Below are positions 20,828-25,663 of a DNA stretch of 53,122 nucleotides, piece by piece; the first letter of the stretch is position 1; the number at the start of each line of letters is the position of its first letter. The notes below the pieces were generated by a model, which saw nothing but the letters and a program-made list of their open reading frames with translations, had not been told where the DNA came from and searched no databases. This DNA comes from Nitrososphaerota archaeon (GTDB lineage: Archaea; Thermoproteota; Nitrososphaeria; Nitrososphaerales; Nitrosopumilaceae). The DNA is taken from the NCBI GenBank assembly GCA_027315065.1, contig DAHUYT010000010.1:1-53122 (forward strand), written 5' to 3'. The translations under genes were made by a program, and so were the position numbers.

Positions 20828-21337
20828 ATGAATGTAGAGCATGAGGATCCTTTTGTTAAAATAGCTGCTATGATTGGTGGCGATGAATACCTAAAAGTGG
20901 CCCGTTCCCTGCTAAATACAGAAGATGCAACAGATGAAGAGATTGCAAGCTCTACAGGTCTTAGAATAAACATTGTCAGAAAGGTGCTGTATGACCTTTT
21001 TGGAAAAGCCCTAATAACTGGAATAAGGGTAAAGGACGAAAAGAAAGGATGGTTTGTTTACAGATGGAGAGCCAGAAAGGACGAAGTAGATAATTTCATA
21101 GGAAACCAGAAGAAAAAGATCGTAGAGAGGTTACAACAAAGACTTGATTATGAGAATTCTGCAGATTTTTATCATTGCGGTAACATGGATTGTCAAAAAC
21201 TAACTTTTGAAAAAGCTTTGGACCTATCCTTCAAGTGCCCTACCTGTGGTAAGCTTGTCAACCTTTCAAAAAATGACAAGGTGAAAAAGGCATTGCAAGC
21301 AAAAATTGATCAATTACATGATGACTTGAAACACTAA
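20828..21337 (+). CDS. tfe: Transcription factor E alpha subunit (TFE)
   Basis: Archaeal homologue of TFIIE-alpha that stimulates promoter opening by RNA polymerase. Extended winged helix at residues 5-95 (DEEIASSTGLRINIVRKVLYDLF), a linker helix, and a zinc ribbon with C117, C122, C137 and C140. The 169-residue length is standard. An AGGAGATTTTAAT sequence precedes the ATG. The 3' end overlaps the convergent arfC by 4 bp. Confidence 0.95.
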   Translation: MNVEHEDPFVKIAAMIGGDEYLKVARSLLNTEDATDEEIASSTGLRINIVRKVLYDLFGKALITGIRVKDEKKGWFVYRWRARKDEVDNFIGNQKKKIVERLQQRLDYENSADFYHCGNMDCQKLTFEKALDLSFKCPTCGKLVNLSKNDKVKKALQAKIDQLHDDLKH

Positions 21338-21981
21338 GTAATATAGTGCAAAACTATCTCGTCGCCCATCCTTTTAACATGCTTTAGTTTTAAGGGATAC
21401 GATATACTGTCAAAGCCATATCCTTCTACTAAAGAGACAGATTTTTTGCCACCAACCACGTATGGAGTGATAGTTACAATAATTTCATCAATAAGTTTTT
21501 CTTTTAAGAAATACCAGTTAGTTGTTCCTCCACCTTCAACGAGTATCTTTCTGATACCTCGCTTTGCTAGGATTGATAACAATTTTTTGAGATCTATTAT
21601 AATTTTACCACACCTGATCACTTCCAATCCTTTTTTTGTAAGAAGAGACACATGACTTGCTGGTGCAATTTCTGATACTATTGCCATGGTAGGGATCTTC
21701 TTTGAGGTTTTCACAATTTTTGAGCTGGAAGAAATTGTTGCTTTAGGATCTAGGATTATCCTAATTGGATTTTTACCTTTTACATGCCTTACTGTAAGAG
21801 ATGGATTGTCTACAGATACTGTATTTCTTCCAACTAGTACGGCATCTACATTACCACGAAGTCTATGAACCCGAATAAGATCTTTGGTTGAAGAAAATTT
21901 TGATTTTCCCTTGCGGGTAGCTATCTTCCCATCTATGCTCACAGCAGCGCTCAGGATAACATATGGTTTAGAATTTGCCAT
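21334..21981 (-). CDS. arfC: Diaminohydroxyphosphoribosylaminopyrimidine reductase (ArfC/RibD C-terminal type)
   Basis: NAD(P)H-dependent reduction of the ribosyl side chain of the riboflavin pyrimidine intermediate. DHFR-like fold: VILSAAVSIDGKIATRKG at the N-terminus, DAVLVGRNTVSVDNPSLTVR, and ILVEGGGTTNWYFL. 215 residues, the stand-alone archaeal length, so no deaminase domain is fused. Last gene of the riboflavin operon; its start overlaps the amidohydrolase gene by 14 bp. Confidence 0.93.
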   Translation of the reverse strand: MANSKPYVILSAAVSIDGKIATRKGKSKFSSTKDLIRVHRLRGNVDAVLVGRNTVSVDNPSLTVRHVKGKNPIRIILDPKATISSSSKIVKTSKKIPTMAIVSEIAPASHVSLLTKKGLEVIRCGKIIIDLKKLLSILAKRGIRKILVEGGGTTNWYFLKEKLIDEIIVTITPYVVGGKKSVSLVEGYGFDSISYPLKLKHVKRMGDEIVLHYIT

Positions 21982-23158
21982 GTACTAGCTCTCCCTCAAA
22001 CATTACTGCTCTAATTGCGCTCTCTGATGCACGATGGATAATAGCCGCATAAGGATTATGCATTGGTTCCAAATCAATTGCATGTTTTTCTATAAATATA
22101 CAATCCGCAAAGCTATTTCTTTGAATGGTTCCAACTTTATTGCCAAGCGTATTTGCAGCGTTAACCGTTGCCATTTTTAGTATAGATTTTGGAGACATTC
22201 GCGTTTTACTCATGCCCATGGAAACCTTCCAGAGATAATCCATCTCCCTGAACATGTCAGGAGAGTTTATCATTACATTATCAGTGCCAATTGTAAGGTT
22301 ACATCCTGTTTGCATCATCAGACTAATATTTGGTATGCCTTCAGCAAGTGCACCATTTGCACGTGGACATACTACTATACCTACTTTATTTCTGGCAGTG
22401 AGTAGAAGATCGCTTTTTGATGCATATGTCATATGAATGAGGATATTTGGTTTTGCAAGCAGTGCTCTCTGGGTTTCCGTTTTTTGTGTTGTACTTTTCG
22501 ATATACTATTGCTTTCTTTGGTCTCTGCTGAATGAATTGCGCGTATTCTTTTCTGTTTTGAAAAATATTTTAGGACCGAATCGCTGAATTCATTTGGCCC
22601 GCTAATTCCTAGACCATCACAACTTTTTATGAGATTTTTAAGATCTATCTTTTTTGATTTTGGTAGGGATTCATTTTTTTTAATTAATTTAGGATCTTGA
22701 TAATAATTTATTCTGCCCAAAACTATCGGCCTTATCGGAATTCCAGATGAGGCATTTTTTAGGATGTTGATTCCTTCCATGTAACCTTCTCTAAAGTCAA
22801 TAAAGGTGGTTATCCCTTTTCGAATCATAGAGATGCAAGAATTTCTAATGAAATTTGTAAGATGTGAAGCCTCCGAGTTTGAGAGGATTCTTTGTTTAAA
22901 CCCACTTACGGGGTGAATCTTCGATTCCACATCTGAGTTGATTCCTACATCCTTTCCTATAGAGTCACCTATATGAGTATGTGAATTAATAAAACCTGGC
23001 ATCATCAAGAGACCCTCACAATCAACAACTTTCTCTTTACTATGTGGTATCAGATCTTCTCCTATTGATTCGATGTATTTTTTAGAAATTCTTATGTTTG
23101 TTTTAACAATATAATCTAGATCTTTCCCATAAAGAAGACTGATATTTCGTATTAACAT
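21968..23158 (-). CDS. Amidohydrolase within riboflavin operon, candidate pathway deaminase or deformylase
   Basis: 396-residue TIM-barrel amidohydrolase of the chlorohydrolase/cytosine-deaminase-like group. Metal and catalytic residues are visible: H60 and H62 (INSHTHIGDS), H209 with E212 (AIHSAET), H242 (LIHMTYAS) and D293 (TIGTDNVMINSPD). The HxxE plus metal-site pattern is the one used by aminohydrolases acting on ring amino groups. It overlaps arfA upstream by 7 bp and arfC downstream by 14 bp, so it is locked into the riboflavin operon. Known steps lacking a gene here are FAPy deformylation (ArfB) and pyrimidine deamination. Family is firm, substrate is inferred. Confidence 0.82.
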   Translation of the reverse strand: MLIRNISLLYGKDLDYIVKTNIRISKKYIESIGEDLIPHSKEKVVDCEGLLMMPGFINSHTHIGDSIGKDVGINSDVESKIHPVSGFKQRILSNSEASHLTNFIRNSCISMIRKGITTFIDFREGYMEGINILKNASSGIPIRPIVLGRINYYQDPKLIKKNESLPKSKKIDLKNLIKSCDGLGISGPNEFSDSVLKYFSKQKRIRAIHSAETKESNSISKSTTQKTETQRALLAKPNILIHMTYASKSDLLLTARNKVGIVVCPRANGALAEGIPNISLMMQTGCNLTIGTDNVMINSPDMFREMDYLWKVSMGMSKTRMSPKSILKMATVNAANTLGNKVGTIQRNSFADCIFIEKHAIDLEPMHNPYAAIIHRASESAIRAVMFEGELVHGKF

Positions 23159-23904
23159 GTAAGCTCAAGAATTCTTTGTTCATTTTTACCATAATCTCGA
23201 ATCTCTCGTATTTTGTCAAGTGATTTGGTTGCTAGATTTGCAGCGTCTCGTGCTGTCTTTGCAGTTCCTATACCGCAATTAAACGATATACCATAACGCT
23301 CTTTTATCAATTCAAGAAACTTGCATATGATTTCGTGTTCAACAGATGAACTAACTATCATAAAATTATCTCCTCCCATAAAGAATGTAAGAGAGTTATT
23401 TTTTAGAAAAAATTCTGACATGTCTGAATACAGTTTGAGTATAAGTGATGAAACTTCATAGGGAGATTTCGTGGCAGAAATTGATGTAGAACCGTCTACG
23501 TCCATGTGTATAATTTGTACTAGACCATCATCACCATTTTTCAGTTGTCCAAAGATATTATGTTCCTTGTCCAAAACAAGATTCATCCTCCGTGCATTGT
23601 CTGCATTTAAATTTGCTTCAAATGGAGTATTTCCTTGTCCTATTGTAAGTGATATGCCTAGATCGAAAAGTTTTGATATTTTTTCTTGAATTTCCACATG
23701 ATCTCTTACTGCAAGTCCATTTGTGATGACAAAAATCTCATCGAATCTATTAGGAAAGGCAAGACAATTCCTCTCTGAAAATAGATTTTGAATCTCCTGA
23801 TATAGCGATGATTGGAGAATCTGAAGCCTGTGTTCTCGGTCACTTCCCAAAGTAAGAGTCCATGGTCCATATCCTGTTATTTTTAGTATAGTAAGTTGAA
23901 TCAT
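23152..23904 (-). CDS. arfA: GTP cyclohydrolase III
   Basis: Converts GTP to the formylamino-pyrimidine FAPy, first committed step of archaeal riboflavin (and F420 chromophore) synthesis. Strong resemblance to the methanococcal enzyme: ITGYGPWTLTLGSDREHRLQ at the start, RFDEIFVITNGL, VQIIHMDVDGST, FFMGGDNFMI and GIGTAKTARDAANLA. Two nucleotidyl-cyclase-like halves, 250 residues. Overlaps the next gene by 7 bp and follows ribH by 1 bp. Confidence 0.95.
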   Translation of the reverse strand: MIQLTILKITGYGPWTLTLGSDREHRLQILQSSLYQEIQNLFSERNCLAFPNRFDEIFVITNGLAVRDHVEIQEKISKLFDLGISLTIGQGNTPFEANLNADNARRMNLVLDKEHNIFGQLKNGDDGLVQIIHMDVDGSTSISATKSPYEVSSLILKLYSDMSEFFLKNNSLTFFMGGDNFMIVSSSVEHEIICKFLELIKERYGISFNCGIGTAKTARDAANLATKSLDKIREIRDYGKNEQRILELTC

Positions 23905-23905
23905 T

Positions 23906-24316
23906 TCAAATCTTTTTTAATTCATCAAATACTTTTTGTGCTGCATCCACAGCCCTTTCTGCGACTGGTCTTATTCGTTGATGAGCCTGTCTATCACTCA
24001 TGCCAGGACCTGTTATTCCAAGGGAAATCGGTTTTTGATGCCTTAATGAAAGCTCAGTTAATGTCTTTGCTACAATATTTGCAATAAGCTCATCATGTTT
24101 TGTTTGACCTTTTATTACTGCACCAAGTGTTATTACGGCATCAACCTCTTTCTTTTTCAATAAGACATCTATTACAAGAGGCATATCAAATACGCCAGGA
24201 ACTTTACAGGTATGGCTTATGGTCATCTTGAGAGATCTTGCCTTTTCAAGCGCTACCTCGAGCATTTTCGAGGTTACTTCATCGTTGAATTCTGCTACGA
24301 CAATCGCAATATTCAA
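23906..24316 (-). CDS. ribH: 6,7-dimethyl-8-ribityllumazine synthase
   Basis: Condenses ribitylaminouracil with dihydroxybutanone phosphate. Small alpha/beta protein (136 residues) with VVAEFNDEVTSKML, the substrate loop PGVFDMPLVIDVLL, LGAVIKGQTKHDELIAN (catalytic His) and GITGPGMSDRQAHQRI. Assembles as a pentamer or icosahedral shell in the family. Separated by 2 bp from ribB upstream and 1 bp from arfA downstream. Confidence 0.96.
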   Translation of the reverse strand: MNIAIVVAEFNDEVTSKMLEVALEKARSLKMTISHTCKVPGVFDMPLVIDVLLKKKEVDAVITLGAVIKGQTKHDELIANIVAKTLTELSLRHQKPISLGITGPGMSDRQAHQRIRPVAERAVDAAQKVFDELKKI

Positions 24317-24318
24317 AA

Positions 24319-24999
24319 TTAGTGCTCCTTGGCGTATTCTACAAGTCCACTGCCATCAAAATATGGCATGGTATTTTGCTTTGCATATTTTTTTGCTTTT
24401 TCAGTAGAAAGTGCTCCATATGTTTCCGAATCTAACATTTCACAAATAACAGTTATTGGCGATAAACCTGCAAGAGTGGCCAAATAAACGGACATCTCAG
24501 TATGCCCCAACCTACTAGATAACAGCCCTTCGGATGCAATAAGAATTGAAACATGACCTGGTGTTTTAAAACTTGAATTGAAGATTTCCTTCTTGTTTTC
24601 ATTTGGGCTTTTGTATAGATGGGCTATTTCTGATATGGTCAATGCCCTATCTCTGTCCGTAACTCCAGTATAGGTACTTTTATGATTAACTGAGATTGAA
24701 AATGATGGTCTGTCTCCATATGGTGCTTTTCCAATAATCATCTTTTTAGATTCTGTATCAACATTTTGAGAATTAGAAAGTATATCATGCATATAGTTTA
24801 GGCCCAAGTTTTTTGCAAAAGCGTGGTTTATGGATAGGCATATTAGCCCGCCAGCATCCTGCCGCATTCTTGCAATATGTTCAGGAGTAACAAAATCAGC
24901 AGCGATTACCATATCTACCTCATTTTCTCGCGTATTTTCATCATGAAGTAAGACAAAATCTCCTCTTTTCAGCGAGGTTATGGTTTCTTCCAAGGACAC
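24319..24999 (-). CDS. ribB: 3,4-dihydroxy-2-butanone 4-phosphate synthase
   Basis: Makes the four-carbon unit of riboflavin from ribulose 5-phosphate, Mg-dependent. Signatures: FVLLHDENTRENEVDMVIAA (acidic metal loop), RQDAGGLICLSI, STYTGVTDRDRALTI and TPGHVSILIASEGLL with the conserved GHT after. 226 residues, single function, not fused to GTP cyclohydrolase II. A TATA box about 27 bp upstream gives it its own promoter in addition to read-through from the riboflavin synthase gene. Confidence 0.96.
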   Translation of the reverse strand: MSLEETITSLKRGDFVLLHDENTRENEVDMVIAADFVTPEHIARMRQDAGGLICLSINHAFAKNLGLNYMHDILSNSQNVDTESKKMIIGKAPYGDRPSFSISVNHKSTYTGVTDRDRALTISEIAHLYKSPNENKKEIFNSSFKTPGHVSILIASEGLLSSRLGHTEMSVYLATLAGLSPITVICEMLDSETYGALSTEKAKKYAKQNTMPYFDGSGLVEYAKEH

Positions 25000-25072: not shown

Positions 25073-25663
25073 TCAATCTTTGGATAAAATATACTTTCCA
25101 AGAACGTCAGTTTCAATATTAACTTTATCTCCAATTTTCTTCATTCCGAGGTTTGTCATTTTCATAGTATGTGGAATTATAGAGATTGAGAATTTGTTTT
25201 TTATTTTATCAACTATCGTCAAGCTTATACCATCTACTGTGATAGATCCTTTCTTAGCAACATATTTTGAAAGTTCGTTTGGTAATTCTATCCAGATCTG
25301 GACTTGATTGGATTGTTTATTTATTTTTGAAATTGTCCCTAACCCGTCAATATGCCCAAGTACAAAATGTCCTTCCAGTCGATCACCTATCTTGAGACTG
25401 CGTTCTATATTTACTCTATCACCATTTTCTAAAGAGCCAAGATTGGTTTTCTTTATCGTCTCTCCAACCATTTCAAACTTTGCCATGCCTTTTGCAATAT
25501 ATATTGCCGTTAGGCATACGCCGTTTATTGCAACACTGTCTCCAACTCTGAGTCCCCTTGCAAGTTTACCAAGATTTACCATCATCTTTGCTTCGCTACG
25601 GGTTTTCGTGTTATTATCAAATCGTATTATTGTGCCCATCCCTTCAATAATTCCAGTAAACAT
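25073..25663 (-). CDS. ribE: Riboflavin synthase, two-domain lumazine-binding type
   Basis: Dismutates two ribityllumazines into riboflavin and the recycled pyrimidine. The two lumazine-binding repeats are each readable: MFTGIIEGMGTI with VGDSVAINGVCLTA, then GHFVLGHIDGLGTI with KGSITVDGISLTIV. 196 residues. This is the bacterial/eukaryotic trimeric class, not the lumazine-synthase-like RibC typical of methanogens, so the operon combines an archaeal front end with a bacterial-type last step. Confidence 0.95.
   Translation of the reverse strand: MFTGIIEGMGTIIRFDNNTKTRSEAKMMVNLGKLARGLRVGDSVAINGVCLTAIYIAKGMAKFEMVGETIKKTNLGSLENGDRVNIERSLKIGDRLEGHFVLGHIDGLGTISKINKQSNQVQIWIELPNELSKYVAKKGSITVDGISLTIVDKIKNKFSISIIPHTMKMTNLGMKKIGDKVNIETDVLGKYILSKD

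Follow-up and report, generated by a model that had tools for sequence, protein, structure and literature searches.

The window, by which we mean the whole stretch of DNA that was analysed (53,122 nucleotides), comes from an ammonia-oxidising, Nitrosotalea-like archaeon; among named organisms, its nearest relatives belong to Nitrosotalea and other Nitrososphaerota. Its minus strand carries a riboflavin operon in the order ribE-ribB-ribH-arfA-amidohydrolase-arfC (Table 1). As the first-pass annotation had stated, the amidohydrolase gene overlaps both arfA and arfC: its start and the stop of arfA share the 7 nt ATGTTAA (23152-23158), and its stop and the start of arfC overlap by 14 nt (21968-21981). 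That annotation had also placed these genes in a riboflavin operon, which holds, although its description was incomplete, since upstream ribH, ribB and ribE also belong to the operon. The riboflavin synthase of the operon (25073-25663) is of the bacterial RibE type and not of the archaeal RibC type. A promoter scan of the window, of a kind that does not cover archaeal promoters, gave no more hits than shuffled sequence.

Table 1. Features of the riboflavin operon and of the amidohydrolase that it contains.
Feature	Position	Strand	Basis
ribE (riboflavin synthase of the bacterial type, with two lumazine-binding domains)	25073..25663	-	profile matches
ribB	24319..24999	-	profile matches; GTG start as listed
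ribH (lumazine synthase)	23906..24316	-	profile matches; TTG start as listed (predicted start)
arfA (GTP cyclohydrolase III)	23152..23904	-	profile matches; end shares 7 nt with the start of the amidohydrolase gene
396-aa amidohydrolase of the NF005552/PRK07213 family, the proposed 2,5-diamino-6-ribitylamino-4(3H)-pyrimidinone 5'-phosphate deaminase	21968..23158	-	profile matches, invariant residues, tree, AF2 model
arfC (archaeal RibD_C-type reductase)	21334..21981	-	profile matches; start shares 14 nt with the end of the amidohydrolase gene
metal-binding HTH motif with H60 and H62	22973..22981	-	translation; invariance in family alignment
HxxE motif with H209 as metal ligand and E212 as proton shuttle (roles by analogy)	22523..22534	-	translation; invariance in family alignment
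D293-N294 (D, metal ligand by analogy; N294, family-specific, G in paralogs)	22277..22282	-	translation; alignment

The amidohydrolase frame opens with an ATG and has no internal stops. Its product matches PF01979 at 6e-40 and, over residues 2-387, NF005552 at 5e-98 (328 bits, cut-off 294). This full-length match above the curated cut-off is to an NCBIfam model (NF005552/PRK07213) called 'chlorohydrolase', a name that states no riboflavin function, whereas the operon context of the gene suggests one. The protein has no match to PF00383, the domain of the RibD_N and Rib2 deaminases, and neither PF02633 nor NF033501 (creatininase-fold ArfB) is among its matches. It is the sole member of its family in its own genome, and the neighbouring arfC product matches TIGR01508 with 207 bits (cut-off 186). 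In two Nitrosotalea assemblies, TS and FS, the amidohydrolase frame is broken with its neighbours intact (L005:6001-7189 and L075:6001-7273), which could be a sequencing error or a young lesion.

The distribution of the family was surveyed in 398 genomes of the phylum, with membership cut at an E-value of 1e-20; the Euryarchaeota were represented by control genomes and by plasmid records of haloarchaea, and a contig scan gave close archaeal relatives only. Among the Nitrososphaerales loci examined, the order ribE-ribB-ribH-arfA-amidohydrolase-arfC is kept essentially throughout, wherever the contig reaches far enough, with a gap of ~1 kb ahead of arfC in one genome (G227). An arrangement found again in nearly every one of these loci is not due to chance. 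In the Sulfolobales (f22), the amidohydrolase follows ribB-x-ribH-arfA and arfC is located elsewhere; in other lineages it adjoins arfA (f35), arfC (f31, f36, f38, f18, f54, f63, f17, f2 and f3), or ribB or ribH (f6 and f19). All 73 ArfC-positive genomes of the window organism's order possess the amidohydrolase, and the one order member devoid of it (G338, a single contig, 100% complete) also has no ArfC, GTP cyclohydrolase III or creatininase. Outside the order, ArfC occurs in 54 of the 55 confident family members against 123 of 324 genomes overall (Fisher 9e-26, uncorrected for phylogeny), and ArfA in 48 of the 55; the single confident member without ArfC (G007) is a genome that is 76% complete. 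Strong homologs (E at most 1e-80) are present in M. jannaschii, Hfx. volcanii and M. acetivorans, and S. acidocaldarius has a family match at E at most 1e-20. In two Nitrosopumilaceae genomes, a further GTP cyclohydrolase III gene (G068:C9:5396-6088 and G245:C31:239-934) lies on a contig other than that of the riboflavin operon.

The residues that the first-pass annotation had read as a ring aminohydrolase site (H60/H62, H209/E212, H242 and D293) proved to be invariant in an alignment of 49 diverse members, together with D65, K88, E124 and N294, while R266, N268 and R376 are conserved at 98%. The protein thus has the subtype III-like residue set (HxH, HxxE, H, D) on a predicted TIM barrel. Its AF2 model has a mean pLDDT of 88.5, with residues 66-87 poorly defined; these perhaps form a mobile loop just ahead of K88. 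Fold neighbours of the model in the PDB include AtzA, the isocytosine deaminase Vcz (7ww2, 8is4), TM0936, guanine deaminases and SAH deaminase. Vcz and the guanine deaminases (2i9u, 6ohb) have the barrel fold in common with the amidohydrolase, with a TM-score of about 0.8 on the query and an identity of <20%. They act on the 2-amino-4-oxo pyrimidine ring of free bases, whereas the substrate that we propose here would carry ribitol phosphate.

Operon linkage alone would also suit another role in the same pathway, and the gene had been put forward as a candidate for a missing archaeal step, either the FAPy deformylase or the pyrimidine deaminase. Were it a functional ArfB, it would cleave the N-formyl group off the ArfA product by hydrolysis, giving formate and 2,5-diamino-6-ribosylamino-4(3H)-pyrimidinone 5'-phosphate. 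Amide hydrolysis is possible for enzymes of the amidohydrolase fold, and the gene directly overlaps arfA. The first-pass annotation had seen no ArfB; a creatininase-family gene, the only one of the genome, does exist away from the operon, and yet it scores just 48.6 bits against the NF033501 (ArfB) cut-off of 180, a point that also speaks for a deformylase encoded in the operon. None of the creatininases scanned reached this cut-off, so that the deformylase role of such genes is that of a candidate. However, M. jannaschii has, besides its family member, an ArfB that was biochemically characterised (Grochowski 2009, as cited in PMC9478397). Creatininase genes adjoin arfA or arfC in f13, f63, f17, f19 and f42, and in f63 and f17 the creatininase and the amidohydrolase lie side by side in one operon; the f63 run, arfA, amidohydrolase, arfC, creatininase, holds both genes and suggests two separate functions. 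Moreover, the family follows ArfC at least as tightly as ArfA, its nearest folds are ring aminohydrolases, and M. acetivorans possesses it with no match to PF05165 or PF02633, as expected if the step of the family is neither that of ArfA nor that of ArfB. A deformylase function is accordingly quite unlikely, and the slot seems to be taken by an ArfB-like creatininase. In the genome of the window organism (G000, contig C85), the sole creatininase gene shares 4 nt with a formyltetrahydrofolate-deformylase-like (PurU) gene (L173:6947-8535), an odd context for what is nevertheless a plausible ArfB candidate.

A nucleoside or base deaminase of the MtaD/DadD, guanine or cytosine type, merely co-regulated with the operon and recycling purine or SAM by-products, would share the superfamily with the protein studied here, and the PDB matches do include SAH/MTA deaminase and guanine deaminase. 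The TM0936 SAH deaminase, MtaD and DadD have the superfamily subtype and the HxH, HxxE, H and D residues in common with the amidohydrolase. MtaD-like paralogs from the same phylum keep these metal-site residues, but they differ at positions 65, 88, 124, 294 and 376, with no equivalents of D65, K88, E124, N294 and R376, and they form a clade separate from the family (a branch of 1.4 units, support 100/100). The window protein lies off this clade and lacks its residue pattern, some genomes encode both a family member and an MtaD-like paralog, and the linkage to arfA and arfC is maintained across many lineages, all of which makes a recycling function highly unlikely. The family signature is also carried by homologs borne on haloarchaeal plasmids. 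The f25 and f15 copies were considered as possible unrelated paralogs and this was rejected: the copies tested join the family on the tree, where several long branches leave their exact position unsure, and since most or all of the signature is present these unlinked copies were counted as members.

The reading that remains is that of the deaminase, for which distribution, linkage and the absence of PF00383 proteins provide good support. The only PF00383-fold deaminase of the window genome is dCMP-deaminase-like and is encoded away from the operon, and no GTP cyclohydrolase II was found in that genome. M. jannaschii and S. acidocaldarius have the family and ArfC and no PF00383 protein at all, and the same holds for the four f2 genomes and, outside the order, for 23 genomes with a family member. 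We therefore consider it very likely that the amidohydrolase serves as pyrimidine deaminase in the riboflavin/F420 route of archaea, and the best reading for this archaea-wide family, as against a deformylase, is that it most probably acts after ArfC. The deaminases RibD (N-terminal domain) and Rib2 are those of bacteria, fungi and plants. They belong to PF00383 and have the cytidine-deaminase fold; the same kind of reaction is proposed here, and Rib2 likewise acts after the reductase. In contrast, the folds are unrelated, and the amidohydrolase would be a non-homologous replacement. One f5 genome (G309), with no family match at 1e-20, encodes a RibA-RibD fusion, which scores above the cut-off for RibD. 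The fusion frame (L205:2782-4548, 589 aa) comprises GTP cyclohydrolase II and a complete bacterial-type RibD with its deaminase and reductase.

The first-pass annotation had named relatives that have the operon without this gene as evidence against its proposal, and such relatives were in part found. Each of the 18 f13 genomes sampled has arfA, arfC and a creatininase gene with no amidohydrolase family match at 1e-20, and at three f13 loci (L153, L154 and L155) creatininase, arfA, arfC and ribB are clustered without it. In the three f13 genomes read, the only PF00383 protein looks like a cytidine deaminase, and no riboflavin deaminase was identified among these proteins. CDA-fold proteins of Sulfolobales and f13 had been considered for the riboflavin step and were rejected, those read being cytidine deaminases or dCMP-deaminase-like. 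Another deaminase must therefore be present in f13. Four further genomes (G074, G262, G349 and G387) have ArfA and ArfC with no family match at 1e-20; some of these absences may be detection failures, as congeners of G262 do have matches. Given these exceptions, the amidohydrolase is not universal for the route. That f13 manages without it could indicate an activity off the main route on a molecule tied to the ArfC product, such as the disposal of an unstable diaminopyrimidine, but this is very unlikely for a gene that is single-copy and universal in the ArfC-positive genomes of its order, that is absent along with the pathway in G338, and for which the PF00383 search offers no other deaminase candidate in M. 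jannaschii or S. acidocaldarius. It is likely that riboflavin/F420 deamination in archaea relies on an amidohydrolase of the barrel fold, which is unrelated to RibD/Rib2, and that this step was replaced again, by some other enzyme in f13 and by the RibA-RibD fusion in one f5 genome.

From the family assignment, the conserved metal-site residues, the predicted fold, the operon linkage and the co-distribution we infer a substrate, a metal and an order of steps for the deaminase. One metal ion, probably Zn2+, would be held by H60, H62, H209 and D293 and would activate a water molecule. By analogy with subtype III aminohydrolases, E212 would shuttle the proton and H242 would polarise the intermediate. 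The water would attack C2 of the ArfC product, with release of ammonia; since this product is a substituted isocytosine, an attack at C2 would be the chemistry of isocytosine and guanine deaminases. Binding of the ribityl-phosphate and the ring is probably due to the family-specific residues D65, K88, E124, R149, R266, N294 and R376. The deamination product would be 5-amino-6-ribitylamino-2,4-pyrimidinedione (5'-phosphate), which a phosphatase would dephosphorylate to supply RibH and FO synthase.

The idea that such a gene fills the deaminase gap is not new in outline. According to PMC8305020, three gaps were left in haloarchaeal riboflavin synthesis, and a bioinformatic study, Rodionova et al. 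2017, had predicted candidates for two of them. In PMC8305020, Table 6 gives HVO_1235 as the arfB candidate; HVO_2483, with the remark 'also predicted for MJ0699', follows arfC there and comes ahead of the phosphatase gap, a slot that by elimination within the table is that of the deaminase. Hfx. volcanii and M. jannaschii both have strong members of the family, and from these genome-level matches (1e-80 or better) and the position in the table HVO_2483 and MJ0699 very probably belong to it. The window gene is thus probably a new member of a family already predicted in 2017 to fill the riboflavin deaminase gap, as far as Table 6 of PMC8305020 reports that prediction. Our literature searches found no experimental assignment of this function to the family, and PMC8305020 still lists the archaeal riboflavin/F420 deaminase as a prediction. 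What the present analysis adds are operons that hold both creatininase and amidohydrolase, member genomes without PF00383 proteins, the case of the RibD fusion, and a diagnostic residue set.

If the function is confirmed, a single gene would close the deaminase gap in ammonia-oxidising archaea, methanogens, haloarchaea and Sulfolobales, and a residue signature would be available for annotation in place of 'chlorohydrolase'. It would also represent a non-homologous replacement of RibD/Rib2. The f13 lineage, with an archaeal route and neither of the known deaminases, would become a defined search problem.
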